A stretch of DNA of 15,048 bases, from positions 1 to 15,048 of the forward strand of contig CAMLRH010000030.1 in assembly GCA_946482375.1 (NCBI GenBank), written 5' to 3'. The translations under genes and the position numbers were made by a program. The stretch comes from an uncultured Caulobacteraceae bacterium (lineage in GTDB: Bacteria; Pseudomonadota; Alphaproteobacteria; Caulobacterales; Caulobacteraceae). The notes under the pieces are model-generated. The model had not been told where the DNA came from and ran no database searches. It saw nothing but the letters and a program-made list of their open reading frames with translations. Position 1 is the first letter of the stretch. The number at the start of each line of letters is the position of its first letter. This document shows, one piece after another, positions 345 through 14,967 of this stretch.

Positions 345-354
345 TGTATAGATA
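345..354 (+). promoter_or_regulatory. Putative HutC-type operator, one mismatch (site 1)
   Basis: TGTATAGATA differs by one base from TGTATAGACA found at 4776, 10150 and (reverse) 10292. The flanks resemble site 2 closely: GCA-N-TTATT-N before it and ATAT(AT)GGTGAG after it, with only a few substitutions and one 2-nt difference over about 30 nt. It is an AT-rich island in GC-rich surroundings, 107-146 nt upstream of the two candidate starts of the PepSY gene. The likely role is control of the PepSY-DUF2271-ApbE operon. The mismatch falls in the conserved AC half, so binding may be weaker. The rest of 227-500 shows no convincing gene. Confidence 0.5.
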
Positions 355-500
355 TATATGGTGAGCGCCGGCGCGGAAGTGCGGGCACAATCGAAGGTGC
401 GGTCATAAACAAGCTTCTGCTGGGGCGTACGCGAAAGATTCCGGCTGGCGCGGGATCATTGATGGTCCCGCTGAACGACGCCGCGGTTCGAGCCCACGAG

Positions 501-1118
501 ATGAAGCGAGCCCGTAGGCGCGCCTCGCTCATGCGCCAGACGGTTCGATGGCATTGGATCAGCGCGGCGATCTGCCTGGCAGGCATGCTCCTGTTCGCAA
601 TCACAGGCGTGACCCTCAATCACGCTGACGCCATTGAAGGCTCGCCAATTACGACCGAGCGCGCGGCAATGCTTCCCGCGGCGACCCTTGAAAGCCTGAG
701 GCGCGCGCAGCCCGTAGACGGGCGGCTCCCTTTGCCTGTGCGCGCCTGGCTGTCTCGAGAAATGGGGCTGAAGGTTGCTGCGGAGGCGCAGGTCGAATGG
801 ACAGGCGAGGAGGCATACGTCGCGCTGCCGCGCCCGGGCGGCGACGGATGGTTGAGCATCGACGCCAGGTCGGGCAAGGTCCTGCACGAAAGCACCGCCA
901 GGGGCGCGATCGCCTATCTGAACGATCTGCACAAAGGCCGAAACACCGGGACCGTCTGGAACTGGTTCATCGATATATTCGCCCTTGCAACGGTCGTGTT
1001 CTGCATCACCGGACTAATTCTCCTTCAATTGCACTCCCACAGCCGTGGACTGACATGGCCTTTGATAATTGGAGGATTTGCCGGCCCGCTATTACTCGCG
1101 TTGTTCTTTATTCACTGA
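501..1118 (+). CDS. PepSY-associated transmembrane protein
   Basis: A 205-residue inner-membrane protein of the PepSY_TM-like type. It has a basic N-terminus (KRARRRASLMR), a first membrane segment at about residues 18-38 ending in the typical TGVTLNHA, and a periplasmic domain of about 100 residues with a PepSY-like GWLSIDARSGKVL stretch (117-128). The family motif YLNDLHKGR (139-147) follows, then two more membrane segments at about 155-177 and 184-203. Histidines at the membrane edges (H18, H41, H144, H178, H180) could bind heme or metal, but this is not shown. Members of this family usually sit beside DUF2271 and ApbE proteins and are thought to pass electrons across the inner membrane. 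An in-frame ATG at 462 would add 13 residues; I prefer 501 because it gives the usual family length and N-terminus. Neither start has a strong ribosome-binding site. First gene of a three-gene operon, 10 nt before the next start. Confidence 0.8.
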   Translation: MKRARRRASLMRQTVRWHWISAAICLAGMLLFAITGVTLNHADAIEGSPITTERAAMLPAATLESLRRAQPVDGRLPLPVRAWLSREMGLKVAAEAQVEWTGEEAYVALPRPGGDGWLSIDARSGKVLHESTARGAIAYLNDLHKGRNTGTVWNWFIDIFALATVVFCITGLILLQLHSHSRGLTWPLIIGGFAGPLLLALFFIH

Positions 1119-1128
1119 CGGGTTGACC

Positions 1129-1644
1129 ATGCGCCTTATCATCCCCGCGGCGTTCCTTTCAGGACTCCTGGTTAGTCCAGCCATGGCGGCAGAGGTTCGC
1201 GTGACTGTCGAACTCCCTCGCCTACGGGTGATGGAATACTATCGTCCCTACACGGCCGTGTGGATCGAGAAACCGGACAGGACCGCGGTGCGAACTGTGG
1301 CTGTCTGGTACAACACCAGACTTCGTAATCAGAAGGGGACTGCCTGGTTAAACAACGTTCGTGAGTGGTGGCGAGCGACGGGTCGCCACCTCGAACTGCC
1401 CGCTGATGGCATCAGCGGCGCCACGCGTGCGCCAGGGGTCCACCAGATCGTCTTCAAACCGGGATCTGCAAAATTTGCCCGGCTACCGGCCGGGCGCTAC
1501 CACTTGGTGGTGGAGGCCGCTCGGGAGGGAGGCGGGCGTGAAACCCTCCGGGTCCCCTTCCAATGGCCCGCCAGGTCAGCGCAGACCGCCTCAGCACGAG
1601 GCTCGCGAGAACTACGTTCAGTCGCGATCAGCATTCGGCCGTGA
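1129..1644 (+). CDS. Secreted DUF2271 protein with a flavinylation motif
   Basis: 171 residues. A Sec signal peptide is clear (residues 1-20, hydrophobic core IIPAAFLSGLLV, cleavage after AMA). The mature part has DUF2271 features: a beta-rich start, YTAVWIEKPD (41-50), the tryptophan-rich NNVREWWR (75-82), DGISGATRAPG (93-103) and a C-terminal GRYHLVVEAAREGGG stretch (122-136). The D-x-x-S-G-A-T core (D93, S96, G97, A98, T99) fits the consensus ApbE uses to attach FMN to Thr or Ser, so T99 is the predicted FMN-bearing residue. With ApbE encoded next and a PepSY membrane protein before it, the likely role is a periplasmic FMN electron carrier. Its physiological acceptor is unknown; metal or ferric-chelate reduction is a guess from neighbours. 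An upstream in-frame start would precede the signal peptide and overlap the PepSY gene, so ATG 1129 is chosen. The DUF4198 gene often found in such clusters is absent here. Confidence 0.82.
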   Translation: MRLIIPAAFLSGLLVSPAMAAEVRVTVELPRLRVMEYYRPYTAVWIEKPDRTAVRTVAVWYNTRLRNQKGTAWLNNVREWWRATGRHLELPADGISGATRAPGVHQIVFKPGSAKFARLPAGRYHLVVEAAREGGGRETLRVPFQWPARSAQTASARGSRELRSVAISIRP

Positions 1645-1654
1645 GGCAGGAAGG

Positions 1655-2650
1655 ATGAGGCGGGTCGCCGTTCCTCTTGCGCTGTCCTTCTCGGAGCCAC
1701 CCTCGGAGCAGGAGGTCATCCTGCGCGGACCCACGATGGGCGTCACGTGGGTGCTTACGGCGCTCTTGCCCCCAGCCCTTCCCGCCGCTCATGTTTCCAG
1801 AGAGGTCCAGGGCTGTCTCGACCGGATCGTGGCGCAGATGAGCACCTGGGAACCATCGTCCGAAGTCAGCCGATTCAATGCAGCTGACGCCGGAACCTGG
1901 CTGCCGCTCGCGCCGGAAACGCACCAGGTTCTGCACTGCGCCCTCAATTTCGCTCGGGGCAGCGACGGGGCCTTCGACCCAACGGTCGGACAACTGGTTG
2001 AGCTTTGGGGATTTGGCTCCGCCGGTCCTGTTGCGAGCCCTCCGTCGGCGGAAATCATCGCCGATTCGCTGGGCGCGGTGGGTTGGTACAAGTTGCGGGT
2101 CGATAGCGCCGGCGCATGCCTCCTCCAGCCTGGTGGCGTCAGATTGGACTTCTCGGGCATCGCTAAGGGTTTTGGCGTGGATGAGGCCGCGCGAGTATTG
2201 AAGCAATTGGGCGTCGACAATTTCCTGCTCGACATCGGGGGTGAGCTACACGGCGCAGGCGTAAAGGCGAACGGGGAACCATGGTGGGTTATGGTCGAGA
2301 CGCCGCCGGGAATAGACTTGGCGGATGGTCCAATCGTTATCGCCTTGCACGACCTGTCGGTCGCCACGTCGGGCAGCTATCGCCGGAGCGCGACGTTCGA
2401 CGGGCGCTCTTACAGCCACACCATCGACCCCCGTACGGGGCGGCCGGTGCCGTCCGGGACGACGTCAGTCACAGTCCTCCATCAACAATGCATGCATGCT
2501 GACGCGCTCTGCACGCTTCTGATGGTTCTAGGCGTCGAAGCCGGCTTCCAGTTCGCGGCTGCGTCGGGCGTAGCAGCCTACTTTTTGGCGATGACCGCGG
2601 GCGGTGTCGACGAACGCATCTCGCCGGCGTTTGCGGAGATGCTGATCTAG
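1655..2650 (+). CDS. apbE: FAD:protein FMN transferase (ApbE family)
   Basis: 331 residues, normal family length. It transfers FMN from FAD to a Thr or Ser of a partner protein. Family motifs appear in order: GPTMGVTW (25-32), STWEPSSEVSRFN (63-75), FDPTVGQLVELWGFG (107-121), DFSGIAKGFGVD (165-176), LLDIGGELHGAG (191-202), ATSGSYRR (237-244), SHTIDPRTGRPV (254-265) and the C-terminal DALC.LLMVLG (283-293), which carries the Mg-binding acidic residue. The ATG at 1655 is preceded by GGCAGGAAGG, a good ribosome-binding site, 10 nt after the DUF2271 stop. The presumed target is T99 of that DUF2271 protein. Oddity: the N-terminus (MRRVAVPLALSFSEPP) has no clear signal peptide or lipobox, although the target is exported. 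Only 27 residues precede the first motif, and the longer reading frame upstream overlaps DUF2271 and looks non-coding. Confidence 0.93.
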   Translation: MRRVAVPLALSFSEPPSEQEVILRGPTMGVTWVLTALLPPALPAAHVSREVQGCLDRIVAQMSTWEPSSEVSRFNAADAGTWLPLAPETHQVLHCALNFARGSDGAFDPTVGQLVELWGFGSAGPVASPPSAEIIADSLGAVGWYKLRVDSAGACLLQPGGVRLDFSGIAKGFGVDEAARVLKQLGVDNFLLDIGGELHGAGVKANGEPWWVMVETPPGIDLADGPIVIALHDLSVATSGSYRRSATFDGRSYSHTIDPRTGRPVPSGTTSVTVLHQQCMHADALCTLLMVLGVEAGFQFAAASGVAAYFLAMTAGGVDERISPAFAEMLI

Positions 2651-2669
2651 TCTCGACGGCGCTTGCCGA

Positions 2670-4712
2670 TCAACTTGATCCGCCAAATGTTTTTCGGAGC
2701 CGAATTTCCAGCGTGCGACCCCAGGTGAGCTGGCGGCGGTCGATGTAGGTGAGAGGACTTGAAGCGCGGGGGCCGTCGTAGACCTCTCGTATTCTTTTCG
2801 AACCTCCCTCAGTCGCACTCTCCAGTTCGACCGTCAGCGTCAGGTCGGGGCGCGGCTTGTACTCGATGAAGGGCGTAACCCAGGTCGAAAGCTTGCGGGT
2901 GTCCTTCTCGCTCAGCCGATAGTCGGTTTCACGAAAGCCGCCGAACGCGTCGACGCCCCAGGTCAATTTCCAGCGCGGCAGGTCCTGCTTGAAGCGGACC
3001 TCCCAGTCGAGCGGGACCTGACCTGAGATTTCGCGCGGCTCGCCGGTGGCGGGATCGGTCACCCGCGACCAGCGCCAGGTGGCGGCGGTCTTCAGCTGGC
3101 CGCCGCTGACGCCGAGTTGTTCAAGCGGCAACGTCAGGCTGGCGGAAAGCTCGTCGCGACTCCCCGCGCCGATATTGGCCGGCGCGTCAGCCACCACCTC
3201 ACCGTCGGCGTCCAGTACTGGCGCGCGATCAATGACATCGGACAGCTCGTAGCGGCGGATCGCGAGGATGGCCGCACCGCTCTTCCAGAACCGCCGTTCG
3301 TAGGCCGCTTCAGCCACCCAGGCCTGCTGCGGCCGCAGGTCCGGATTGCCGGCCAGCACGACGCCGGTGTTGATCAGCGATGAGGAGGCGACGAAGTCGT
3401 CGAAGTTTAGTTGGTCGACCTCGCGCTCGACCCGCAGGCGGACCTGGCTGGCAGGCGTGGGGTCCCAGGTCAGCGCCAGGCGAGGCTTTGTAAAGTGCAG
3501 GGTCTTGCCGGTGCTGACGTCGCCTTCGGATGCGATGTCAGAGGCTTCCTGGCGAAGACCGCCCTTGATGGTCCAGGCCGGGCGCGGGCGCCAGGTCGCG
3601 GTGGCAAAGGCTTCGCCGCGCTTTTCCTCGACCCGCACATTGGCGGCGGGCACCGGCACGACCACGCCGTTCTCGGTGAAGGCGGTGCGGCTGTCGAGGG
3701 TGTTGAGGGCGGCCTCGACGCCGACCTCCACCTCGAGGGTGCTAGACCGCCGCCACTGCAGCCGCCCCCTGGCGACCGACTCCGCCGTCTTGCGATCTAG
3801 ATGGAAGTCGCGAACGACGCCTGGACCTTCGAAGAGGGCGATGGTGTCGGTGTCCTTCCATTGCTGGAAGCCGGTGACCTCCAGCCCGAGGTCGGCGGCC
3901 AAGTCCATCGTGTGCCGCGCGCCCAGTTCGGCTTGGAGCCTATCCTCGTCGGTGGTCTCCACCTCGCTCAGGCCAGTAAGGCGCGAACGCTCGACGAGCA
4001 CACCCTTGTACGGGTTCAGCATGTAGGCCCCGTTCAGCCGAAGGCCGCCCCCCGCGAACGGCGTCTCCAAGGCCGCAGTAGCCCAGGTCCGCAGGGTGTC
4101 GGCCTCTCCGTCGATGTCTGAGAGCCGCAGCAGCGCGCCGGCCGCATCGCGCCGCTCGCGCATCCCGTCACCCATCATGTCGTCGGGGCGGCGACCCACC
4201 AGCAGCGACCCTTCCAACAGACGCTCGCCGCGCCGCCACTGGCCCTCCGCCTGGACAGTCGGCAGCACGCGGCCGTCGTAGACCAGGTAGGAACTCACCC
4301 CGGCCGCACCGGTAAAGCCGCCGCGGGTGCTGCGCACGACGTTGGCGACCACCGCGCGACCGCCCATGTCGATCCCGGGCGCGCCGCCACGGATCAGCTC
4401 GATGCGCACCACGGAGGACGCCGGGATACGCTTGAGGATCTCCTCGAGGGTGTCGTTCTTGGAAACCGGCGGCTTGCCGTCGATAAGCACGTTGCCGCCC
4501 GATCCAGCCAAGCCGCGCACGCTGTCACCGCGCTCGAACGCGAAGCCCGGAAGGCGGGTGACCATGTCGAAGGCGGTCGTCGGCGCGGCGGCGGCGAAGA
4601 AGGCTGGCGGATAGGTGATGACATCGGCGGGCGCCTGCGCCCAGGCCACGCTGGCCAGGAGTGAAACGAAGGCCGCAGCGGACGTTGCAGCCCCGGTAGC
4701 GCCTTTCGCCAT
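2670..4712 (-). CDS. TonB-dependent outer-membrane receptor (first)
   Basis: 680 residues. A signal peptide (1-24, cleavage after AWA) is followed by a possible TonB box (DVITY, near 30), a plug domain at about 45-130 and a 22-strand-type barrel to the C-terminus. The plug shows DMVTRLPGFAFERGDSVRG, GGNVLIDGKPP, LEEILKRIPASSVVRIELIRG and VANVVRS, standard TonB-receptor plug motifs. The barrel contains LAGNPDLRPQQAW, the widespread NPDL.PE-type loop. ATG 4712 is preceded in its own direction by GGGGAG at suitable spacing. The substrate class (siderophore, metal chelate, sugar, other) cannot be told from sequence. It is divergent from the NTF2/OprB pair and shares with it an intergenic HutC-type operator. 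It ends 19 nt from the end of apbE, the two genes being convergent; no strong terminator was seen between them. Confidence 0.93.
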   Translation of the reverse strand: MAKGATGAATSAAAFVSLLASVAWAQAPADVITYPPAFFAAAAPTTAFDMVTRLPGFAFERGDSVRGLAGSGGNVLIDGKPPVSKNDTLEEILKRIPASSVVRIELIRGGAPGIDMGGRAVVANVVRSTRGGFTGAAGVSSYLVYDGRVLPTVQAEGQWRRGERLLEGSLLVGRRPDDMMGDGMRERRDAAGALLRLSDIDGEADTLRTWATAALETPFAGGGLRLNGAYMLNPYKGVLVERSRLTGLSEVETTDEDRLQAELGARHTMDLAADLGLEVTGFQQWKDTDTIALFEGPGVVRDFHLDRKTAESVARGRLQWRRSSTLEVEVGVEAALNTLDSRTAFTENGVVVPVPAANVRVEEKRGEAFATATWRPRPAWTIKGGLRQEASDIASEGDVSTGKTLHFTKPRLALTWDPTPASQVRLRVEREVDQLNFDDFVASSSLINTGVVLAGNPDLRPQQAWVAEAAYERRFWKSGAAILAIRRYELSDVIDRAPVLDADGEVVADAPANIGAGSRDELSASLTLPLEQLGVSGGQLKTAATWRWSRVTDPATGEPREISGQVPLDWEVRFKQDLPRWKLTWGVDAFGGFRETDYRLSEKDTRKLSTWVTPFIEYKPRPDLTLTVELESATEGGSKRIREVYDGPRASSPLTYIDRRQLTWGRTLEIRLRKTFGGSS

Positions 4713-4775
4713 TTCGCACTCCCCAAAGCGCCGGCCGGCGGCCGGATGCAGAGTCGTAATCAGGTGCAGTTATTT

Positions 4776-4785
4776 TGTATAGACA
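4776..4785 (-). promoter_or_regulatory. Putative HutC-type operator (site 2)
   Basis: An exact TGTATAGACA (plus strand), a quasi-palindrome matching GT-N-TA-N-AC, the known operator pattern of the HutC subfamily of GntR regulators. It lies in the 137-bp gap between the first TonB receptor (start 4712, minus) and the NTF2-like gene (start 4850, plus), so one site could serve both. Read towards the receptor it is TGTCTATACA ending 63 nt before the ATG, the same orientation and nearly the same spacing as sites 3 and 4 before their genes. Confidence 0.65.
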
Positions 4786-4849
4786 TATGGTGAGGGTTTT
4801 GGCACTCCTTACAAGCGCCGCCGCTGGCCGGCTTGAGGGGAGACCGATC

Positions 4850-5335
4850 TTGAACCGCATCCCACTGCTCATCGCCCTCTGCGTCCTGGCCATAGCGCCG
4901 CCGGCGCTCGCCGACGGCCCCGCCGCGCCACCCACGGCCGCGCCGTTGACCGGCGCCGTCGCCGAGGCCGCCCAGGTGGTCGATGGTTTCAAGGCCGCCA
5001 TGGCCGCCGGCGACGCCGACGCCGCCCTGGCCTTCCTGGCCGACGATGCGCTGGTGTACGAAGTCGGCCACGTCGAGCACTCGAAGGGCCAGTTCGCCTC
5101 GGATCACCTGCTGGCCGACATCGAATTCTCCAAGGCGGTGAACGGCGTTGTCACCCGCCGCGCCGGCCATGCGTCGGGCGACCTTGCCTGGGTCGCGTCC
5201 GAGGGCCGCACGACCGGCCGCTTCAAGGATCGCGACATCGACCGCATAACCACCGAGACCATGGTCCTGCGCCGGGATCCGCAAGGCTGGCGGATCGTGC
5301 ACGTGCACTGGTCCTCGCGCGCTCCGACTCCCTGA
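4850..5335 (+). CDS. Secreted NTF2/SnoaL-like (DUF4440-type) protein
   Basis: 161 residues from a TTG start. The TTG is chosen because GAGGGGAG lies at ideal spacing before it and the product then begins with a normal signal peptide (NRIPLLIALCVLAIAPPALA, cleavage before DG). The alternative ATG at 4787 lies next to the operator and has no ribosome-binding site. The mature domain has the NTF2-like pattern: an N-terminal helix VVDGFKAAMAAGDADAALAFLADDALVYE, then GHVEHSKGQFA, and strands ending in RRDPQGWRIVHVHWSSR. Such domains bind small ligands or act as isomerase-like folds; function here is not known. A periplasmic location and linkage to a porin gene (87 nt downstream) suggest a role in handling an imported compound. 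Confidence 0.75.
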   Translation: MNRIPLLIALCVLAIAPPALADGPAAPPTAAPLTGAVAEAAQVVDGFKAAMAAGDADAALAFLADDALVYEVGHVEHSKGQFASDHLLADIEFSKAVNGVVTRRAGHASGDLAWVASEGRTTGRFKDRDIDRITTETMVLRRDPQGWRIVHVHWSSRAPTP

Positions 5336-5422
5336 TCGTCCCGCCCACGCCACGGTCCTCGACGCGAGACCTGCCGGGCCTCGCGATCGAGGCCGCGCGT
5401 CCTCTCCTCCTGTCCGGAAACC

Positions 5423-6571
5423 ATGTTCATGAGCCGCCTTGGCCTTTGCACCCTGCTGTCGCTGTTCGCATCGGAGGCGCTGGCGTCCGCCCGCGAGGAC
5501 CCGCCGGTCAGTCTCTCCGCCGGCTACATCGGCGAGGTCTGGAGCGTTCGCGAGGGCGGCCTGGCGACCGGTGAGCGCTACCTCGACCACCTCGAGGCCG
5601 CAGTCGAGGCGGACCTGGACGCGCTAGTCGGCTGGCGCGGCGCGAGCGCCTTCGCCCAGGCCGTCTACAACAACGGCGAGAGCCTGACCGAGGACCTCAT
5701 CGGCGACTTCCACGTGGTCAGCAATATCGACGGCGGCGGCCCTGCCCGCCTCTACCAGCTGTGGCTGGAGCAGCGCCTGCTGGACGACCGCGCGTCGATC
5801 CGGGCCGGCCTCTATGATCTCAACAGCGAGTTCGACACCACCGAGACCGGCGGGCTGTTCATCAACGGCGCCCACGGCATGGGCGCGGACTTCGGGCAGA
5901 CCGGCGTAAACGGACCCTCCATCTATCCGGTCACCGGGCTGGCGGTGCGGGGCGAGTTCAAGGCGACCGACGCCTGGGCTGTGCGGGCCGTGGTCGCCGA
6001 GGGGATGCCGGGTTATCCAGAGCGGCCGGGCCGCACGGGCTTTGACCTCGACGAGGAGGAGGGCGCGCTGCTCGTCCTGGAGACAAGCTTCCAGGACGAA
6101 CGCCGCAAATTCGCGCTGGGCGGCTGGCGCTACACCGCCGAATTTGAGTCCTTCGCGGGGCGCCTGCAATCGGGCAACGACGGCATCTACGCCCTGGCCG
6201 AGGGTCGGCTGTCCGGCGAGCCCGGCGGACGGGGCGCGGCCGCCTTCGTGCGCATCGGCCGGGCCGACAGCGCCTTCAACGCCATCGAGTCCTATCTGGG
6301 GGCCGGCATAAGCTACACTGGTCTGTTCGCCGCGCGATCCGAAGACCAGCTGGGCTTGGCCGTGGCCTGGTCCGAACTGGGTGAACCCTTCCTGGCGGCC
6401 GAGGCCGGCGCCGATCTGGTCGATAGGGAGGCAACCGTTGAGCTGACCTATCGCGCCGTGCTGAGCGAGCACGTCAGCCTGCAGCCGGACGTGCAGTATG
6501 TCTTCAATCCGGGCGGTCGCGACGGCGACGACGCGCTGGTCGTCGGCCTGCGGTTCGAACTCGCCTACTGA
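5423..6571 (+). CDS. OprB-type carbohydrate-selective porin
   Basis: 382 residues (380 if the second ATG at 5429 is used; the start region has GGAAA just ahead). A signal peptide ends near ALASA. The OprB pattern is clear in the first half: YLDHLEAAVEADLDALVGW, a LYQLWLEQRLLDDRASIRAGLYDLNSEFDTTE stretch (split by short gaps), GLFINGAHG and YPVTGLAVRGEFK. Alternating strands follow to a C-terminal VVGLRFELAY, an outer-membrane barrel terminus. OprB porins let sugars and related small solutes diffuse in, but many members have no known substrate. It follows the NTF2-like gene in the same direction and ends just before a strong terminator, so the two likely form an operon under site 2. Confidence 0.85.
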   Translation: MFMSRLGLCTLLSLFASEALASAREDPPVSLSAGYIGEVWSVREGGLATGERYLDHLEAAVEADLDALVGWRGASAFAQAVYNNGESLTEDLIGDFHVVSNIDGGGPARLYQLWLEQRLLDDRASIRAGLYDLNSEFDTTETGGLFINGAHGMGADFGQTGVNGPSIYPVTGLAVRGEFKATDAWAVRAVVAEGMPGYPERPGRTGFDLDEEEGALLVLETSFQDERRKFALGGWRYTAEFESFAGRLQSGNDGIYALAEGRLSGEPGGRGAAAFVRIGRADSAFNAIESYLGAGISYTGLFAARSEDQLGLAVAWSELGEPFLAAEAGADLVDREATVELTYRAVLSEHVSLQPDVQYVFNPGGRDGDDALVVGLRFELAY

Positions 6572-6590
6572 TATTTTCGGGCAAACGAAG

Positions 6591-6625
6591 AAAGGGTTGG
6601 AGCGCCACGGCGCTCCAACCCTTTT
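6591..6625. terminator. Bidirectional rho-independent terminator
   Basis: Arms AAAGGGTTGGAGCGC (6591-6605) and GCGCTCCAACCCTTT (6610-6624) pair perfectly over 15 bp around a CACG loop. A T run follows on the plus strand and, because the stem begins with AAA, on the minus strand as well. It lies between the convergent porin gene and the small secreted protein gene and should stop both transcripts. Confidence 0.9.
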
Positions 6626-6646
6626 CGCTTTCCCGGGTCGAGCGGG

Positions 6647-7132
6647 TCAGTCGAACTTAATCAGGCCGGGCGCGATCGTGTAGTAGCCGGCCAGCTGCAG
6701 CCGTACAGTGACAGGCGTGTCGTTGGTGTTGGCCAGGTACCAGCCGTGGGCGCCGGTCATCGGCGAGATGAACTGGCCGTGGGTGGCGGCGGTGGCCTTG
6801 TCCTCGCGGTAGAACATCACCGCCTTGTTGGCGTGCGATTCGCCGTGGAATTCCGACACCACCGGCTTGGTGGCGGTGAGCGAATAGACAACCGCGTCGC
6901 CGGCCTTCACGTGCACCTTGTACTCAAGGCGCGCGCCCTTCTGACCGACGGCGCCCAGCGGAATCTCGATCACGTCCGTACGGTAGGCCTGCGCGTGGCC
7001 GCGCTCGATGCCCAGGTGCGCGAGGTCGGTGGAACGGAACTCCGCCGGCGGCGGCGCCGCGAGGGCGGGGCCGGCCAGAGCGACGACAGCCAGAGCCAAC
7101 AGGGCCCGTTTGTCGAAAGCGATCGATTTCAT
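6647..7132 (-). CDS. Small secreted protein of unknown function
   Basis: 161 residues from ATG 7132, preceded by GGAGA at good spacing; an in-frame start at 7159 would add 9 residues without a ribosome-binding site. A signal peptide covers 1-25 (LLALAVVALAGPALA). The mature domain is beta-rich, with LEYKVHVKAGDAVVYSLTATKPVV (69-92), EFHGESH (94-100), ATHGQFISPMTGAHGWYLANTNDTPVTV (116-143) and LAGYY (147-151). This resembles a conserved family I know only as uncharacterised or 'transmembrane anchor' proteins, in which GxHGW and the N-terminal-to-Thr NT.D.PVTV run recur. Seven histidines in the mature part (39, 46, 74, 96, 100, 118, 129), several in HG pairs, would suit metal or heme binding, but this is inference. 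It lies 57 nt downstream of the reductase fusion and is probably co-transcribed. Confidence 0.72.
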   Translation of the reverse strand: MKSIAFDKRALLALAVVALAGPALAAPPPAEFRSTDLAHLGIERGHAQAYRTDVIEIPLGAVGQKGARLEYKVHVKAGDAVVYSLTATKPVVSEFHGESHANKAVMFYREDKATAATHGQFISPMTGAHGWYLANTNDTPVTVRLQLAGYYTIAPGLIKFD

Positions 7133-7189
7133 GAACGTCTCCAAATGCGCGGCGAACACCGCCGCAAGGTCATCGCGTAAGAGCGAGGT

Positions 7190-10081
7190 CTAGTAGACGT
7201 CGCGGCGGTAATTCCCGCCGCGCGTCAGGTTATCGAAACCGTCCTCACCGAGGATCTCGATGAGGGCCTCCGTGACGGCCGGCGCCATCCCCTGCAGGCT
7301 ACCGCAGACATAGATGGCGGCGCCGTCCCGCACCCATGCGCGAATCTCGCCCCCGACCTCGACCAGCTGGTGCTGTACGTACCGGCGCTCCGCCTGGTCG
7401 CGGGAGAACACGAGATCCGCCCGCTCCAGGCGCCCGGACATCAGCCAGGCGTCGATCTCGTCCTTATAGAAGGCGTCCGTGGCGGCGTTTCGTTCGCCGA
7501 AGATCAGCCAGTTGCGGCGGTGATCCTTGGCCGCGCGGCGCCGTATATGGGCGCGCAGCCCCGCCAGTCCGGTGCCGTTGCCGATCAGGATCATCGGGCG
7601 GTCGTCGGCGGGCGGATGGAAGCCGGGGTTCCGGCGAATCCTCAGGGGGAGTTGTTCGCCCAGCGCGACCGTCGAAAGGAGGCCGGAGGCGACGCCCGGC
7701 TCGCCCTTCTCGGTCCGCATCAGCCGCACGAGCAGGTCGATGCGGCCGTCTACGGACGTCGAGGCGATCGAATACTCCCGTTCACTGAGCTCCGCCGCCC
7801 CGCTGGAGAATTCGCGCCAGGTCAGCCCGGCGGCGATCTGCGCGATGTCGCCGGCTTCCCAATCGGCCGCGCCCGAGACCGGCTCCAGCTCAAGATGGAT
7901 CGCCGGCCAGCCGGCGCTGCCGGGGTTTAGCAGCCGGCGATCGACCAGGCGCCATGGGCTGAACGGCGCGCGCGTGATGCTCATCGCATCCGTCCGCCCG
8001 GTGATGGCCCCCAATTCGCGCGACCAGCGGTTCAGTGCTTCCGGATCGGCATCGTGCGCCTGGATCGTGGGAAAAATCCGCTCGGCGCCCGCAGCCTGCA
8101 GCCAGCGGTCCAGCGCCATACCGAAGCCGCAGAACACTCGATACTGCCGATCGCCCAGCGCCAGCATCGCGTACTTGAGCCCATGCAGCGCCGGAACTTG
8201 GCGCATGATGCGCCGCTCGAAAGCCATGGCGTGGTCCGGGGCGTCGCCGTCTCCGGTCGTGGCGACCAGGAAGATGGCCTGCTGCACCTCGGCCAGGCTG
8301 GCCGCGTCGACCTGACCGAGGTCGCGCACGGCGACCTTCAAACCGGCGCTTCTCAGCGATTCAGCGGTCTGGGCGGCGAGCTGCTCGGCCGTGCCGGTCT
8401 GGCTGGCATAGATGACCAGCACCGTGTCGGAGCGCGCGTCGGGGGGGGTGTAGGAAATCGGCTTAGCAGCAGCCCCGAAGCTTCCGCCTAGCAGGGCCGT
8501 GACCCCGCCAGCGGGCAAAAGCCTTGTGCGTTGCAGCCGCCGCCAGCCTATGACCATCGCCGTGATGGAGAGGAGCAGGCCAGGCAGCGTCACCGCGAAC
8601 AGGATGATGTCCCACAGCGGCCGGCGTTCGAGCAGCCACTTCACGTCGAGGTCGTGGAAGGCCACGATCGTCCAGCGATCGATCCGAGAGGTGTCGTTGA
8701 CCAGCCCTTCGATCTTCCCGGTTTGCGGATCGATGTGGAACCAGGAGTTCTCGGGATCGTCGAAGACGACGCGAACGATGGGCGTCTTCTTCGGATAGAA
8801 GCCGCTGTGCCAGTACTCGTCGCCGGTCTCCAGGCGCGCGGCCGAAACAAGATTGGCCTGCGGCATGATCTTGCGGGCCGCGTCGGCGATCTGATCGACC
8901 GACAGCTCACGCGGCTGGCCGGTCTCTGCATTGACGAGGCGAGGGTCGGAAACGCCGTCTTCGAGCACCGCCAGCGCTTCGCCACCGACGCGAAGGAAGG
9001 TGGCGCGCCTGATCTTCGCGTCCTCTCCGGCCAGCGTTCCCAAGGCGGCAGCGTTGAATTGCGAGCTGGCGCTGCCGGCGAAGCCGGTGAACTCGGCCTG
9101 CTCGATCTCACGGGTTTCGAGGACCCCGCCGGGGTACATGGTCCAGAACCCGCTGATGATCCACGACGTCAGGAATATGCCGCCAAGAATGCCGACGATA
9201 TGGTGCCATTTCATCCAGCCGCGGAAAGGCGAGGCCTCGCCGTTGGCGTAGCGCGAACGCAGGCGCAGTCTCGAAAAGCCGATCCACATGCCGCTGACGG
9301 CGATGAAGATACCGGCGCCCGCCAGAATGTAGATGGTCCACTGCCAGACGAAGGTGTCCCAGCGAACGATCTCGAAGTAGAGCCAGTGCGGGATGGCGCC
9401 GACCCAGTTCCACATCCGTTCATAGCGCTGGGTGTCGAGCACGATCTCGCCGGTGGCCACCGACACGTAATACTCCGTACCGGCCGGGTCGTTCATGCGG
9501 ATCAGATGGAACGGCCGCTCCTTGTTCCAGTAGCCGGTCACCGTCCACTGGTCCCGGAACAGGTCGCCCTTGTGCAGGGTAGCCTCAGGCGCTGAAAGCT
9601 GATCGCGCACGATCTTGAGCGCCTGCTCGCCGGTGACGCCCTTGATCGGAGCGCCGGTGACGGCCGAGACGGTATGGTGTTTTCCCTCCCAGTCCGAGAT
9701 CCGGTAGACTGGCTGATCGCCCGCCATTTCCAGACGGAGATCCTGCGGGAACTCGGACATCCCGGCCCGGGTCAGCGCGGCGTCCGGCGCCACTTCGACC
9801 TTGTTCCAGTCGAGCGGCCTCAAGACCTTCAGCTTGTCGTCGGCGTCCATGGCCGGCCAAGCGACATAGGCCAGCACCAGTCCGCTGACGAACCAGACAA
9901 CGAAGTAGAGGCAGGCAACGATGCCGAGCCAGCGGTGGATGGTGATGATCGTCTGCTGGAACTGATCCTTCAGCGGCACGCGCTGGCGAGCCTCGACCCG
10001 GCGATCCGCCGGCGACTGCTGGAAGAAAGCGGCCGGACGAATCCCTGTGCGGGTGTGCTGCATTGCGTCGTCGCTGCCCAT
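7190..10081 (-). CDS. PepSY / flavodoxin / NADPH-reductase fusion protein
   Basis: 963 residues. The N-terminal half (about 40-520) is a PepSY_TM-type membrane module with segments near 52-74, 248-268, 294-316 and 490-511, and with IHRW (48-51), MKWHH (290-294) and VAFHDLDVKWLL (473-484) as likely heme- or metal-related histidine motifs. A flavodoxin domain follows (about 553-695; YASQTGTAEQLA, ATTGDGDAP, LGDRQY). The C-terminal part is a ferredoxin-NADP reductase-like domain (REYSIAS for FAD at 769-775, GNGTGLAGLRAHI for NADPH, YVCGSLQGM, and C-terminal GGNYRRDVY). Such fusions move electrons from cytoplasmic NADPH to a periplasmic acceptor. Relatives near siderophore receptors (for example Pseudomonas PiuB next to PiuA) are considered ferric-siderophore reductases. 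ATG 10081 is chosen because GAGGAA precedes it; the longer frame back to 10273 would run through the operator at 10150. An 8-C coding run at 8441-8448 lies in the linker before the flavodoxin domain. Confidence 0.9.
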   Translation of the reverse strand: MGSDDAMQHTRTGIRPAAFFQQSPADRRVEARQRVPLKDQFQQTIITIHRWLGIVACLYFVVWFVSGLVLAYVAWPAMDADDKLKVLRPLDWNKVEVAPDAALTRAGMSEFPQDLRLEMAGDQPVYRISDWEGKHHTVSAVTGAPIKGVTGEQALKIVRDQLSAPEATLHKGDLFRDQWTVTGYWNKERPFHLIRMNDPAGTEYYVSVATGEIVLDTQRYERMWNWVGAIPHWLYFEIVRWDTFVWQWTIYILAGAGIFIAVSGMWIGFSRLRLRSRYANGEASPFRGWMKWHHIVGILGGIFLTSWIISGFWTMYPGGVLETREIEQAEFTGFAGSASSQFNAAALGTLAGEDAKIRRATFLRVGGEALAVLEDGVSDPRLVNAETGQPRELSVDQIADAARKIMPQANLVSAARLETGDEYWHSGFYPKKTPIVRVVFDDPENSWFHIDPQTGKIEGLVNDTSRIDRWTIVAFHDLDVKWLLERRPLWDIILFAVTLPGLLLSITAMVIGWRRLQRTRLLPAGGVTALLGGSFGAAAKPISYTPPDARSDTVLVIYASQTGTAEQLAAQTAESLRSAGLKVAVRDLGQVDAASLAEVQQAIFLVATTGDGDAPDHAMAFERRIMRQVPALHGLKYAMLALGDRQYRVFCGFGMALDRWLQAAGAERIFPTIQAHDADPEALNRWSRELGAITGRTDAMSITRAPFSPWRLVDRRLLNPGSAGWPAIHLELEPVSGAADWEAGDIAQIAAGLTWREFSSGAAELSEREYSIASTSVDGRIDLLVRLMRTEKGEPGVASGLLSTVALGEQLPLRIRRNPGFHPPADDRPMILIGNGTGLAGLRAHIRRRAAKDHRRNWLIFGERNAATDAFYKDEIDAWLMSGRLERADLVFSRDQAERRYVQHQLVEVGGEIRAWVRDGAAIYVCGSLQGMAPAVTEALIEILGEDGFDNLTRGGNYRRDVY

Positions 10082-10149
10082 AGCGTTCCTCGCCTGATGG
10101 AGCCCACAGCACCTTCCGGGCTGGCTCCCGCATTTGGGCACGACATTTA

Positions 10150-10159
10150 TGTATAGACA
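10150..10159 (-). promoter_or_regulatory. Putative HutC-type operator (site 3)
   Basis: An exact TGTATAGACA on the plus strand. It lies 68 nt upstream of the reductase start at 10081 and reads TGTCTATACA towards that gene. The surrounding 15 nt (10148-10162) are a perfect inverted copy of 10289-10303 at site 4, so both divergent genes carry the same element ACTTGTCTATACATA in their own direction. I found no convincing -35/-10 pair at the usual spacing, so the promoter itself is not called. Confidence 0.68.
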
Positions 10160-10291
10160 AGTGGCGATTGCGTGAGCGGCGCCGGAGCGCCCGGCTCGCG
10201 GCCTGCGAAGGCGCCTCTGCCGCCCGAAGAGCGCAGGTGAGTGCGAATTAGGCGCCCTGCGCCGCCTTGTCACCGCATGACGATTCAGACT

Positions 10292-10301
10292 TGTCTATAC
10301 A
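10292..10301 (+). promoter_or_regulatory. Putative HutC-type operator (site 4)
   Basis: TGTCTATACA, the reverse complement of TGTATAGACA, 69 nt before the start of the second TonB receptor at 10371. Its 15-nt context (10289-10303) matches site 3 exactly in inverted orientation, the two centres being 142 bp apart. The 289-bp divergent gap holds these two elements and no other gene; I saw no cobalamin riboswitch signature despite the BtuB-like receptor that follows. Confidence 0.68.
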
Positions 10302-10370: not shown

Positions 10371-12398
10371 ATGGACGGACAATCTAAAGTAGCGAAGAAG
10401 CGCCAAAGCATCGGGCGCGGCGTGGTATTGGCGTCGGCCTCCTGGCTGGCGATGGCCGCGGGCTCCGCCCACGCGCAGGAAGTCGGAGAAGTCGAAGAGG
10501 TCGTGGTCACCGCCAAGCGGCTGGAGGAAAGCCTGCCTCTGGAACTGGCGGAGTACGGCAACCGTGTCCAGGTCATCGAAACCGAAGCGATTGAAAAGCG
10601 GGCCATCAACGACGTGGCGCAGGCGCTGCAACTTCTGGCCCCGTCGTTGCATATCCAGCCGAAAGCCGGCGCCTTCGACTATGTCGACATCTCGCTGCAG
10701 GGCTCCCGGACGAACGAGGTGCTGTGGCTGGTCGACGGCGTTCGCATCACCAACCGGCTCTACAACGGCACGACGCCGCTCGACACCATCCCGGCGGCGA
10801 TGATCGAGCGGATCGAGATACTGGAAGGCGGCCAGGGGCTCTTCTACGGCACCCAGTCGGTGGCCGGGGTGGTCAACGTCATCACCAAGTCACTCATCAA
10901 GGACGGAACCGACGGCCAGTTCTCGGTCGGCGGCGATACCAACGACGGCCGTCACATCGCCGCGCACGTCCGCAGCGCCGCCGGCCCGCACGAGTTCGCG
11001 ATCTACGCCTCCAGCGATGAAGCCGAAGGGTTCCAGCCGATCCCGACGGAAGATTATCAGCCGAGCGCGACCGACCGTAAGCGCGGCTACGACGTGCAGA
11101 CCTACGGCGCGAAGTACGGCATCGACATCACCGAACAGCTGCGACTGAGCGTCGGTTACCAGAAGACCCACGCCAAGCTGGATTTCGCGCAGCCCAACCT
11201 CATCGCGCTCTATTACAACGAGCGCGACGAAGACATCGTTAGCGCCAAGGTGGATTGGAATCCGAGCGAGGTCTTCGGGCTTTTCCTCAAGGGTTACTAC
11301 CACAAGTGGGATTCCACGATCACGCGGTACAACAATGTGATCGGCGGAGCCCCGGGCGAAACCGTGCAGACCGCCGACGGCACCTTCTGGGGCTACAAGG
11401 ATTACGGCCTGAACGCGCTCGCCAAGTTCGCGCCCACTGGCCTCGGGATGGAGTTCTACGCCGGTTACGACTTCCAGAATTACAACGGCCGCGACGACGT
11501 CCTGCTGATCGCCGAGCAGACTGAGCAAGTCCATGCGGTGTTCGGCCAGGTGCGGACGACCGAGGATCTATTCGGGAATCTCAAGCTGTCGGCCGGCGTG
11601 CGGCACAACATGCCGAAGTCAGGCGACGAACTGACGATCTGGAACGTCAGCGGTCAGTACGATTTCTCCGAGAACCTGTTCGTCCGCGCGACGGCGGGGA
11701 CCGCCTACCGGCTGCCGGACGCCAGCGAGCTGTATTCCAACGATCCGTGCTGCGAGCAGGGCAACCCGGGCCTGCAGGGCGAAAAGAGCAATAACTTCAA
11801 CGCCTCTGTGGGCGGCTTCTTCACGGTGGCCGGCGAGAATGGCTCCTGGGAAATCGTCGGCTTCGTTCGCAAGGTGGAGAACCTGATCGCCGCGGTCGAC
11901 AACGGCGCCGGATTGCTCGTCTACGAGAACACGGAGAGCGAGACCGACGTGAAAGGGTGGATGGCGACGGCGAGCGTCCCGCTCGGCCCGGTATTTTCGA
12001 CCAACCTGTCCTACAGCGCGACCGAAGCGACCAACGCGTCAGGCCTGCAGATCGACCGGATTCCCGAGACCACCGCCAAGGGCGTTCTCGACTACCATCC
12101 GGGGAATCTGCCGATCGGCGGCGCGCTCAGCTTCAACTACACGGGCAAGACCTATCAGACGCTGGCGAGCCTTGGCCGTCTGTCGTTCGGTGACGTCGTT
12201 ACGGCGGACCTGTCCGGCTACGTCGAGTTCGGGCCGGACCGGCGCCATCGCCTGACCGCGCGCATCGAGAACGTGACGGACGAAGTCTACACCACCCGCC
12301 TGCAACGGATCGTGCCGGATCTGGGCGGCGACCCGTATGCGGCCCGCTTCCGGGGCGTGCCGCGCACCTTCCACCTGCGCTACAGCTTCGACTTCTAG
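10371..12398 (+). CDS. TonB-dependent outer-membrane receptor (second, BtuB-like)
   Basis: 675 residues. ATG 10371 follows GGAAGGGGAG at good spacing, so the longer frame from 10305 is not used. The signal peptide ends after AHA (35), then comes a classical TonB box EEVVVTAKR (42-50). The plug follows (about 55-170) with QALQLLAPSLHIQ, LQGSRTNEVLWLVDGVRI, IPAAMIERIEILEGGQGLFYGTQSVAGVVNVITK. The barrel has the standard TAYRLPDASELY and GNPGLQGEKSNNF region and ends in HLRYSFDF with the terminal aromatic needed for assembly. A Cys-Cys pair (DPCCEQG) precedes the GNPGL loop and may lie outside the cell. Substrate is not evident; location between the reductase fusion and the hut operon, under site 4, suggests a histidine-linked or chelate substrate. 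Confidence 0.94.
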   Translation: MDGQSKVAKKRQSIGRGVVLASASWLAMAAGSAHAQEVGEVEEVVVTAKRLEESLPLELAEYGNRVQVIETEAIEKRAINDVAQALQLLAPSLHIQPKAGAFDYVDISLQGSRTNEVLWLVDGVRITNRLYNGTTPLDTIPAAMIERIEILEGGQGLFYGTQSVAGVVNVITKSLIKDGTDGQFSVGGDTNDGRHIAAHVRSAAGPHEFAIYASSDEAEGFQPIPTEDYQPSATDRKRGYDVQTYGAKYGIDITEQLRLSVGYQKTHAKLDFAQPNLIALYYNERDEDIVSAKVDWNPSEVFGLFLKGYYHKWDSTITRYNNVIGGAPGETVQTADGTFWGYKDYGLNALAKFAPTGLGMEFYAGYDFQNYNGRDDVLLIAEQTEQVHAVFGQVRTTEDLFGNLKLSAGVRHNMPKSGDELTIWNVSGQYDFSENLFVRATAGTAYRLPDASELYSNDPCCEQGNPGLQGEKSNNFNASVGGFFTVAGENGSWEIVGFVRKVENLIAAVDNGAGLLVYENTESETDVKGWMATASVPLGPVFSTNLSYSATEATNASGLQIDRIPETTAKGVLDYHPGNLPIGGALSFNYTGKTYQTLASLGRLSFGDVVTADLSGYVEFGPDRRHRLTARIENVTDEVYTTRLQRIVPDLGGDPYAARFRGVPRTFHLRYSFDF

Positions 12399-12466: not shown

Positions 12467-14131
12467 TCAGCGCAGGCTCGGCAAGTCCAGGCCATGCTGG
12501 CGGGCGCAGTCGATCGCCAGGTCGTAGCCGGCGTCGGCATGACGCATGACTCCGGTGGCGGGATCGTTCCACAGCACCCGTTCGATCCGGCGCGCCGCCG
12601 CCTCCGTACCGTCGCAGACGATCACCATGCCGGCGTGCTGGGAAAAGCCCATCCCGACTCCGCCACCGTGGTGCAGCGAGACCCAGGTGGCCCCCGAAGC
12701 GCAGTTGAGCAACGCGTTCAACAACGGCCAGTCGGAAACGGCGTCGGAGCCGTCGAGCATGGCCTCCGTCTCGCGGTTGGGCGAGGCCACCGATCCCGAG
12801 TCCAGATGATCGCGGCCGATGGCAACCGGCGCCTTGAGCTCGCCCCGCGCCACCATCTCATTGAAGGCCAGCCCCAGCCGATGGCGGTCGCCCAGGCCCA
12901 CCCAGCAGATACGGGCGGGAAGGCCCTGGAAATGGATCCGCTTCCTGGCCATGTCGAGCCAGTTATGAAGATGTGGGTTGTCGGGGATCAGCTCCTTCAC
13001 CTTCTCGTCGGTGCGGTAGATGTCCTCCGGATCGCCCGACAGCGCCGCCCAGCGGAAGGGGCCGATGCCCCGGCAGAACAGCGGCCGGATGTAGGCCGGC
13101 ACGAAGCCGGGGAAATCGAAGGCGTCCGCGACGCCCTCCTCCCTGGCCATCTGGCGGATATTGTTGCCGTAATCGACGGTCGGCACGCCCGCCTTCTGGA
13201 AGGCCAGCATGGTGCGCACGTGTTCCGCCATAGAGGCGCGGGCGGCGCGTTCGAGGCCCTTGGGATCGCGGGTCCGGGCGTCCTCCCATTCGCCGACGGT
13301 CCAGCCCTTGGGCAGGTAGCCGTTGACCGGGTCGTGGGCGGAGGTCTGGTCGGTGAGCAGGTCCGGCCGCACCCCGCGCTGCAGCAGCTGGGGCAGGATT
13401 TCGGCGGCGTTGCCGAGGAGGCCGACGGAGATGGGCTTCTTCTCGGCGCAGCTGCGCTCGATCAACGCCAGCGCCTCGTCGAGGTCGCCGGCGACCTGGT
13501 CGAGGTAGCCGGTGCGCACGCGCATGTCGATGCGGGAGGCCTGGCACTCGATCGCCAGGCACGAAGCGCCGGCCATCACGGCCGCTAGCGGCTGGGCGCC
13601 GCCCATGCCGCCAAGGCCCGCCGTCAGCAGCCAGCGGCCCGACAGGTCGCCGCCATAGTGGCGCCGGCCCATCTCGACGAAGGTTTCATAGGTGCCTTGG
13701 ACGATGCCCTGGGCGCCGATGTAGATCCAGCTGCCGGCCGTCATCTGGCCGTACATCATCAGCCCCTTGCGATCGAGCTCGTTGAAGTGGTCCCAGTTCG
13801 CCCAGCGGGGCACCAGGTTGGAGTTGGCGATCAGCACCCGGGGCGCGTCGGCGTGGGTGCGGAACACGCCGGCCGGCTTGCCGGACTGCACCAGCAGGGT
13901 CTCGTCCTCGCCCAGGCGCCTCAGCGCCGAGACCATGCGATCGAGGCTCTCCCAGTCGCGGGCCGCGCGCCCAATGCCGCCATAGACCACCAGTTCCTCC
14001 GGACGCTCTGCGACGTCGGGATCGAGGTTGTTCATCAGCATCCGCAGCGGCGCCTCGGTCAGCCAGCTCTTCGCGGACAACTCGGTCCCGTGGGCGGCGC
14101 GGATGAGGCGGGTATTGTCGATACGGTTCAT
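12467..14131 (-). CDS. hutU: Urocanate hydratase (urocanase)
   Basis: 554 residues, full length. It converts urocanate plus water to 4-imidazolone-5-propionate with tightly bound NAD+, step 2 of histidine breakdown, in the cytoplasm. Visible hallmarks: [23 protein letters not shown] (15-37), [13 protein letters not shown] (48-60), the NAD-binding [12 protein letters not shown] (170-181), YGNNIRQMA (321-329), [10 protein letters not shown] (352-361), and [11 protein letters not shown] (406-416) whose C409 corresponds to the conserved cysteine of Pseudomonas putida urocanase. [15 protein letters not shown] (487-501) is also intact. Two ATGs are adjacent (14134 and 14131); the second is better placed relative to CAGGA. 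It lies 14 nt after the hutG stop and is the last gene of the operon here. Confidence 0.97.
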
Positions 14132-14145
14132 CATGGGTCCTGAGC

Positions 14146-14967
14146 TTAGGCCCGCTCGGCGAACTGCCGGCAGGTCTTGAGAATCTGTCTGAGGGCGGCG
14201 CGCATGGGGGCGGCGCGGACTTCGTCGTAGCCGGGAGGCCAGGTGGATGGCGCGGGGGCGTGGGCCGGGTCGTCCATGTAGCCGCGGCAGGCGAGCTCCA
14301 TCTGCACGGCATGGACGTTCTCGTCCGGGCGGCCGTAGCGCCGCACCGTCCAGCCGCCCTTGTAGCGGCCGTTGGTCACCCATGAGAACGTCGTCTCCCG
14401 GCAGACGGCCTCGATCGCGGCGGTCAGCGCCGGGGCGCAGGTCGCGCCGTCGTTGCTGCCAATGTTGAAGTGGGGCAGCAGCCCTTCAAACTGCCGGGGG
14501 ATCAGCGAGCGGATCGAATGGGCGTCGTAGAGAACGACGGCGCCGTGGGTCTGCTTGAGCCGCTCGATCTCCTCCTGCAGCGTCTGATGGTAGGGATCGA
14601 AGAAATGCGTGCGGCGGTCGGCGATCTCCGCCTCGCCCGGCTCGGCGCCTTCACGGTAGAGCGGTTCGCCGTCGAAGGTCGTCGTGGGACAAAGTTCGGT
14701 CGTGGTCACCAGGCCGGGATAGAGGGAGGCGCCCGAGGGGTCGCGGTTGACGTCGATGACCGTCCGCGAGATTGCGGTGCGGACCAGGGTCGCGCCAAGC
14801 TCGCCGGCGAAGTCATAGAGCCGGTCCACCCACCAGTCGGCGTCCTTGCGCGCCAGCCAAGGCGAGATGAGCCTTGCCTCGACGTCGGCCGGGATGTCGG
14901 TTCCAGTGTGCGGGAAACTGACGATCAGGGGCGCCTGTCCCCGCTCGACGGTGAGCCAGCCGGTCAT
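14146..14967 (-). CDS. hutG: N-formylglutamate deformylase
   Basis: 273 residues. It hydrolyses N-formylglutamate to glutamate and formate, the last step of the five-step histidine pathway that also uses formiminoglutamate deiminase (HutF). Conserved stretches include [11 protein letters not shown] (16-26), [13 protein letters not shown] (41-53), [19 protein letters not shown] (67-85, written here as one 19-residue run), THFFDPYH (120-127) and VVLYDAHSI (144-152), the last containing metal-site candidates. The ATG at 14967 overlaps the hutH stop as ATGA, so translation is probably coupled. Presence of this enzyme rather than HutG-type formiminoglutamase predicts hutF elsewhere in the operon. 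Confidence 0.96.

Follow-up and report, generated by a model that had tools for sequence, protein, structure and literature searches.

The window, by which is meant the whole 15,048-nucleotide stretch of DNA analysed here, comes from an uncultured Caulobacteraceae bacterium, has a G+C content of 0.66, and carries the genes and candidate operators listed in Table 1. These genes, including those for histidine utilization (hut), had been called in an earlier sequence-only reading, and the calls, that of the small exported protein aside, were confirmed by Pfam and NCBIfam matches. At the right edge of the window 24 residues weakly match the HutH C-terminus (E 0.007), and the promoter of the window's hut genes lies past that edge.

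Table 1. Predicted genes and candidate HutC-type operators of the window
Feature	Position	Strand	Evidence or remark
HutC-type operator, one mismatch	345..354	+	~147 bp upstream of PepSY-DUF2271-ApbE operon; matrix score 26.8
PepSY_TM_like_2 membrane protein	501..1118	+	PF16357, E 5.2e-69
DUF2271 exported protein with SGAT flavinylation motif	1129..1644	+	PF10029, E 1e-44
ApbE flavin transferase, start codon uncertain	1736..2650	+	PF02424, E 2.3e-79
TonB-dependent receptor 1 (TonB 1)	2670..4712	-	PF00593; 70% orthologue in Root700
HutC-type operator	4776..4785	+	Between divergent TonB 1 and SnoaL-OprB; matrix score 22.9
SnoaL/NTF2-like exported protein	4850..5335	+	PF13474
OprB-type porin	5423..6571	+	PF04966, E 4.4e-55
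Small exported protein, orphan family	6647..7129	-	Without Pfam match; adjoins PepSY-flavodoxin gene here and in Root700 (L131)
PepSY_TM fused to flavodoxin and NAD(P)H reductase domains (PepSY-flavodoxin)	7190..10063	-	PF03929, PF00258, PF00175; Root700 orthologues 60%, 65%
HutC-type operator	10150..10159	+	PepSY-flavodoxin side of divergent region; matrix score 15.8
HutC-type operator	10292..10301	-	TonB 2 side of divergent region; matrix score 21.4
TonB-dependent receptor 2, BtuB-like (TonB 2)	10371..12398	+	PF00593, PF07715; structure model nearest BtuB
hutU, urocanate hydratase	12467..14149	-	TIGR01228, 953.6 bits
hutG, N-formylglutamate deformylase	14146..14967	-	TIGR02017, 411.3 bits

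Parts of this arrangement have published counterparts. PepSY-like gene clusters have been associated with the reduction of iron outside the cytosol, and ApbE has been demonstrated to flavinylate DUF2271 (PMC8238504). The same three gene types, PepSY, DUF2271 and ApbE, stand together at 501-2650, and the [S/T]GA[S/T] motif is present at residue 97 of frame 1126-1644; the cases named in the accessible text of that paper are repressed by Fur, whereas the operon in the window has a HutC-type site upstream. Farther along, the divergent TonB 2 and PepSY-flavodoxin genes give the adjoining receptor and PepSY_TM genes typical of FoxB, HiuB and CrtA systems. The hiuABC genes of Caulobacter crescentus also encode a TonB receptor and a PepSY inner-membrane protein, for which periplasmic reduction of a ferric chelate has been proposed, but they serve Fur-regulated uptake of a hydroxamate siderophore, and the available text mentions no HutC link (PMC12424826). 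In the CrtA TonB copper transporters the receptor gene is followed by a PepSY_TM gene and small-molecule metal chelates are imported; these, however, are regulated by copper, again with no HutC link mentioned in the portion of the paper at hand (PMC12914433).

The candidate operators share the word TGTATAGACA, which is exact at three places, and have a one-mismatch copy, TGTATAGATA, at position 345. A word search recovered all four copies that the sequence-only reading had reported. In 200 dinucleotide shuffles the mean number of matches was 0.10 and the maximum 2, so that four were reached in none. Mechanically defined open reading frames with GTG or TTG starts overrun some of the four sites. 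When starts were placed from the flanking sequence, the beginnings of domains and signal-peptide-like starts, the genes probably begin 3' of the sites, at about 501 for PepSY, 4850 for SnoaL, about 10063 for PepSY-flavodoxin (minus strand) and 10371 for TonB 2. All four sites would therefore be intergenic, and the earlier claim that they stand upstream of genes and outside coding DNA holds with these probable starts. A plain sigma-70 promoter word was rejected, as no sigma-70-like match was seen at the sites.

Operators of the HutC subfamily have the core GT-N-TA-N-AC. The exact words contain it; at site 345 its last position is not matched. In Pseudomonas, HutC is a repressor of the hut genes with the published core TGTA-N2-TACA (PMC12977541), which is fitted exactly by the word found in relatives, TGTATATACA, with one change by TGTATAGACA and with two changes by site 345.

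The pattern WTGTATAKACAW was searched, with no use of hut genes, in 149 genomes from the family to which Phenylobacterium sp. J367 belongs (assumed to be Caulobacteraceae); it matched in 54 of them, and the reversed control pattern in 20. Among the 30 family loci returned, the site separates divergent hutI and hutF genes in 21, and in the other nine it does not. The operator word is common to the window and to the hut promoters of relatives, and the earlier assignment of the core to the HutC type is borne out both by this position and by the exact or near match to the published core. In Phenylobacterium sp. J367, G032 and G067 the word has a UTRA-type regulator as well as hutU in its vicinity, and it adjoins a UTRA-type regulator on a small contig in the Henriciella MAG DT_49. 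In the order of Sphingomonas sp. QA11 the pattern was present in 70 of 147 genomes, with the reversed control also frequent in many; of 30 loci, ten abut hut, HutC or TonB genes and the remaining 20 have no such neighbour. In Sphingomonas sp. QA11 the hutI-hutF intergenic region holds a TGTCTAGACA variant.

A 20-column matrix was trained on only the 27 site entries of the 21 hutI/hutF loci, a training set from one GC-rich family. With this matrix the window sites score 15.8-26.8, whereas the next match in the window reaches 4.5 and the highest score in 60 simulated windows is 7.0. The training sites score 30.1-36.0, so the window sites fall short of hut sites in strength, and the high score of site 345 is partly due to its AT-rich flanks. 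Control loci from other genomes that match half of PepSY-flavodoxin only gave no match of at least 9 (29 of 29). Among remote TonB relatives (L014-L080), 21 of 67 loci score at least 14 somewhere, 19 of the 21 being Bacteroidota by record title, and scores under 9 occur for sites in the Sphingomonas order (L125, L237). Nineteen further site-centred loci picked by hand, five of which (L235-L239) were already among the pattern-search loci, comprised seven hut loci, four with TonB and either PepSY or HutC, and eight with neither; two other sites fall within long open frames (L244, L245). Taken as a comparison of sequences, these results give good support to the window sites as HutC-type operators. 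A separate observation concerns G071, which has three perfect HutC-like sites (L241:7021, L242:7444, L243:8198), beside which no match to the reference hut, TonB or PepSY genes was detected.

Sites of this type also precede transport and redox genes in relatives. The TonB receptor of one TonB-PepSY-PepSY operon, used as a query, matched in 16 of 199 genomes of the same family, which was also the source of the pattern and PepSY-flavodoxin searches, so that genomes were shared among them; 13 of the 16 loci have a matrix match of at least 14 near the receptor start. As to the remainder, L259 has no site, and two loci match only the second half of the receptor, leaving the region before the start uncovered. 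A SnoaL relative (50%) lies upstream of the operon in L259, at 4432-5004. G363 and G378 each have two pattern places, one at hutI/hutF and one at the TonB-PepSY-PepSY operon, and no regulator was detected beside the latter in the 16 kb read.

In Sphingomonas sp. QA11, HutC proteins scoring above the equivalog cut-off are encoded both beside a TonB-PepSY-PepSY operon and beside a cluster of TonB, S9, M14 and HutD genes. About 3 kb from its hutU stands a PepSY-DUF2271-DUF4198-ApbE operon with no recognisable site. More distant relatives of TonB 2 were covered by 21 loci, one gene being present twice, and none had a site before the receptor; one of these relatives, L008, has two weak matrix matches elsewhere in the locus. 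Neither the SnoaL-OprB unit nor the PepSY-DUF2271-ApbE unit was found behind such a site in the relatives examined, and for both the case is therefore that of the window sites themselves.

The closest parallel is in a relative (G274) that appears to be Phenylobacterium sp. Root700. Seven distinct pattern places were found in its 4.6 Mb, where about 0.14 is expected from base composition. One lies between hutI and hutF (L171, site 1401), with the HutC gene adjoining hutF; the remaining six share a contig, on which they span no more than 28 kb. The 28 kb hold orthologues of TonB 2 (65%), TonB 1 (70%) and two PepSY-flavodoxin fusions (60%, 65%), two copies of the small exported protein, a TonB-PepSY-PepSY operon (L257), an S9 peptidase, a HutF paralogue and two GntR/UTRA regulators. 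Both regulators exceed the HutC equivalog cut-off of 220 bits (289.4 and 284.0), and two other UTRA regulators of Root700 fall below it (119.3 and 102.4). Root700 was the only one among 318 genomes with a whole-length PepSY-flavodoxin match at E <= 1e-100. In the Sphingomonas order no match at 1e-150 was found in 346 genomes, in a search run without a positive control, and in the Rhodanobacter order one of 299 genomes matched, the Rhodanobacter genome already known. Among plasmids, PepSY-flavodoxin matched 228 records and TonB 2 matched 259, none with at least 60% identity. The gene for hutU was not found in the Root700 assembly; contig C32 starts within a hutI-like gene (L171), so this may be an assembly gap.

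The sequence-only reading had suggested looking for a HutC gene and the same site at the hut genes. Both are found in Root700; the window itself yielded no GntR gene. It had also held that random scatter of the motif across the genome would count against the proposal: in Root700 every place is at hutI/hutF or in the 28-kb cluster, and elsewhere the eight hand-picked loci already noted have unrelated neighbours.

It is probable, in our judgement, that a HutC-type regulon here extends to reductive uptake. The earlier proposal of HutC-type control is supported for the TonB and PepSY-flavodoxin genes by sites in relatives, and comes from the window sites for SnoaL-OprB and PepSY-DUF2271-ApbE. Comparison of sequences points to the identity of the operator and to predicted HutC-type sites in relatives, upstream of both TonB-PepSY and PepSY-flavodoxin genes; binding, the inducer, the acting HutC protein, the role of the reductases and the ligand are what we infer beyond this. 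HutC proteins in general are released by urocanate. The four sites would be operators of a HutC-family (GntR/UTRA) repressor, which in the absence of histidine would hold down five transcription units: PepSY-DUF2271-ApbE, TonB 1, SnoaL-OprB, PepSY-flavodoxin with the small exported protein, and TonB 2. Urocanate formed in the breakdown of histidine would then release the repressor. The TonB receptors would bring in a chelate in which the metal is plausibly bound by histidine or by a histidine-containing peptide or metallophore; histidine is conjectured as its component because of the regulation. Electrons would pass from NAD(P)H through the fused flavodoxin reductase to the PepSY proteins, which could also receive them from the ApbE-flavinylated DUF2271, and the PepSY proteins would reduce the metal in the periplasm, freeing both metal and ligand. 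The window would thus encode a histidine-inducible reductive uptake route. Against this reading count the lack of a HutC gene in the window, the siteless loci of the more distant TonB 2 relatives, the siteless PepSY-DUF2271-DUF4198-ApbE operon of QA11 and the single genome with a whole-length PepSY-flavodoxin match. HutC of P. aeruginosa, moreover, is reported to sense PCA and to bind a site that differs from the HutC consensus (PMC12772324), so neither inducer nor site can be assumed. A stronger form, in which histidine catabolism and reductive metal acquisition are one HutC-family regulon, imported metal-histidine chelates are stripped and the histidine is passed to the hut enzymes, is rather doubtful; histidine would then be scavenged metal carrier and food simultaneously.

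A competing explanation, which is possible though we lean against it, is that a dedicated HutC paralogue responding to another ligand, such as a histidine-containing peptide or another imidazole, reads the sites, which would then belong to a sister regulon outside the histidine response proper. The two HutC paralogues inside the Root700 redox cluster mean that the controller may be such a protein rather than the HutC of the hut locus. In a tree they are sisters (98/97), apart from the hut-locus HutC, which groups with the hut-locus HutCs of G363 and G378 (99/97), the support values in both cases being rough; the paralogues beside the two TonB clusters of QA11 are in keeping with this. On the other hand, the operator word of the cluster is identical to that at hutI/hutF, and in G363 and G378 the same word precedes an operon that is separate from hut and has no detected regulator. 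The HutF paralogue in the Root700 cluster, and hutU and hutG adjoining the cluster in the window, likewise speak against it.

It is unlikely, but deserves mention, that the genes take up histidine-containing peptides or free histidine and that PepSY does something other than reduce metal. Genes for S9 and M14 peptidases and for HutD adjoin such sites in relatives, OprB is a porin family, and histidine uptake has been proposed for a TonB transporter (PMC5343134). Against this, the flavodoxin and NAD-reductase domains, ApbE, and DUF2271 with its flavinylation motif point to electron transfer, and the published TonB-PepSY pairs serve metal chelates (PMC12424826, PMC12914433). That the four words are chance occurrences or a general AT-rich promoter element with no HutC link is very improbable: the AT-richer Sphingomonas-order genomes, in which the reversed control is often as frequent and 20 of 30 loci lack a related neighbour, and the matches elsewhere in coding DNA or beside unrelated genes would favour it, but the shuffles and the gap between the lowest window site and the best simulated window (15.8 vs 7.0) led to the rejection of a chance origin, and the G+C-rich window, the conserved hutI/hutF position and the siteless control loci also stand against it.

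The extension of the HutC regulon to reductive uptake can be set against earlier work. A TonB-dependent transporter in the HutC regulons of Caulobacterales and Sphingomonadales has already been published from in silico analysis (Leyn et al., 2016; PMC5343134); the accessible part of that report mentions no PepSY, flavodoxin reductase, DUF2271/ApbE, OprB, SnoaL, peptidases or in-cluster HutC paralogues. Pseudomonas HutC, which shares the TGTA-N2-TACA core with the window, has predicted sites beyond hut, including those of the siderophore receptors fpvA and fpvB; these extra sites are described as low-affinity and genome-wide (PMC12977541), whereas the window has strong predicted sites clustered beside hut genes. 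Literature searches on histidine utilization with TonB-dependent receptors and PepSY, and on the hut operon, Caulobacter, TonB-dependent and histidine, returned nothing, and no paper linking HutC to PepSY was found, judging by titles and the openings of abstracts. The redox operons and the in-cluster HutC paralogues therefore look new for the HutC regulon, and together seem to extend it. If this is true, a textbook repressor of amino-acid breakdown also governs outer-membrane uptake and transmembrane electron transfer, TonB, PepSY and ApbE modules without a known substrate gain a testable inducer in histidine or urocanate, and histidine use is tied to metal supply in alphaproteobacteria. On this comparison, some bacteria may couple the induction of a reductive uptake system to histidine use.

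Some further features were noted at this locus and in relatives. Four HutC-type sites lie around the TonB, S9 peptidase, HutC paralogue, M14 carboxypeptidase and HutD genes of Sphingomonas sp. QA11 (L124:6200-16250), which suggests a cluster for the utilisation of histidine peptides. Positions 1-53, at the left edge of the window, resemble by eye the 3' part of a tRNA (T-arm, CCA), and the cluster may start beside a tRNA gene; ARAGORN returned no tRNA for the whole window, probably because the edge tRNA is truncated. A perfect long hairpin, terminator-like, occupies 6591-6624 between the convergent genes for OprB and the small exported protein. The latter has 23 relatives in the search made and belongs to a family with conserved FHG and HGWYLAN motifs, and its model (mean pLDDT 85.5) is a predicted beta sandwich with weak matches only, to GOLD-type and other beta sandwiches. 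No solved-structure relative of TonB 1 was found by sequence, and among the 60 solved-structure matches listed for PepSY-flavodoxin none shown spans the PepSY half. The predicted fold of TonB 2 is nearest to BtuB, which does not fix its ligand; a Cys-Cys pair in this receptor (residues 460-461, DPCC), invariant in 25 aligned relatives, is possibly a metal or disulfide site.
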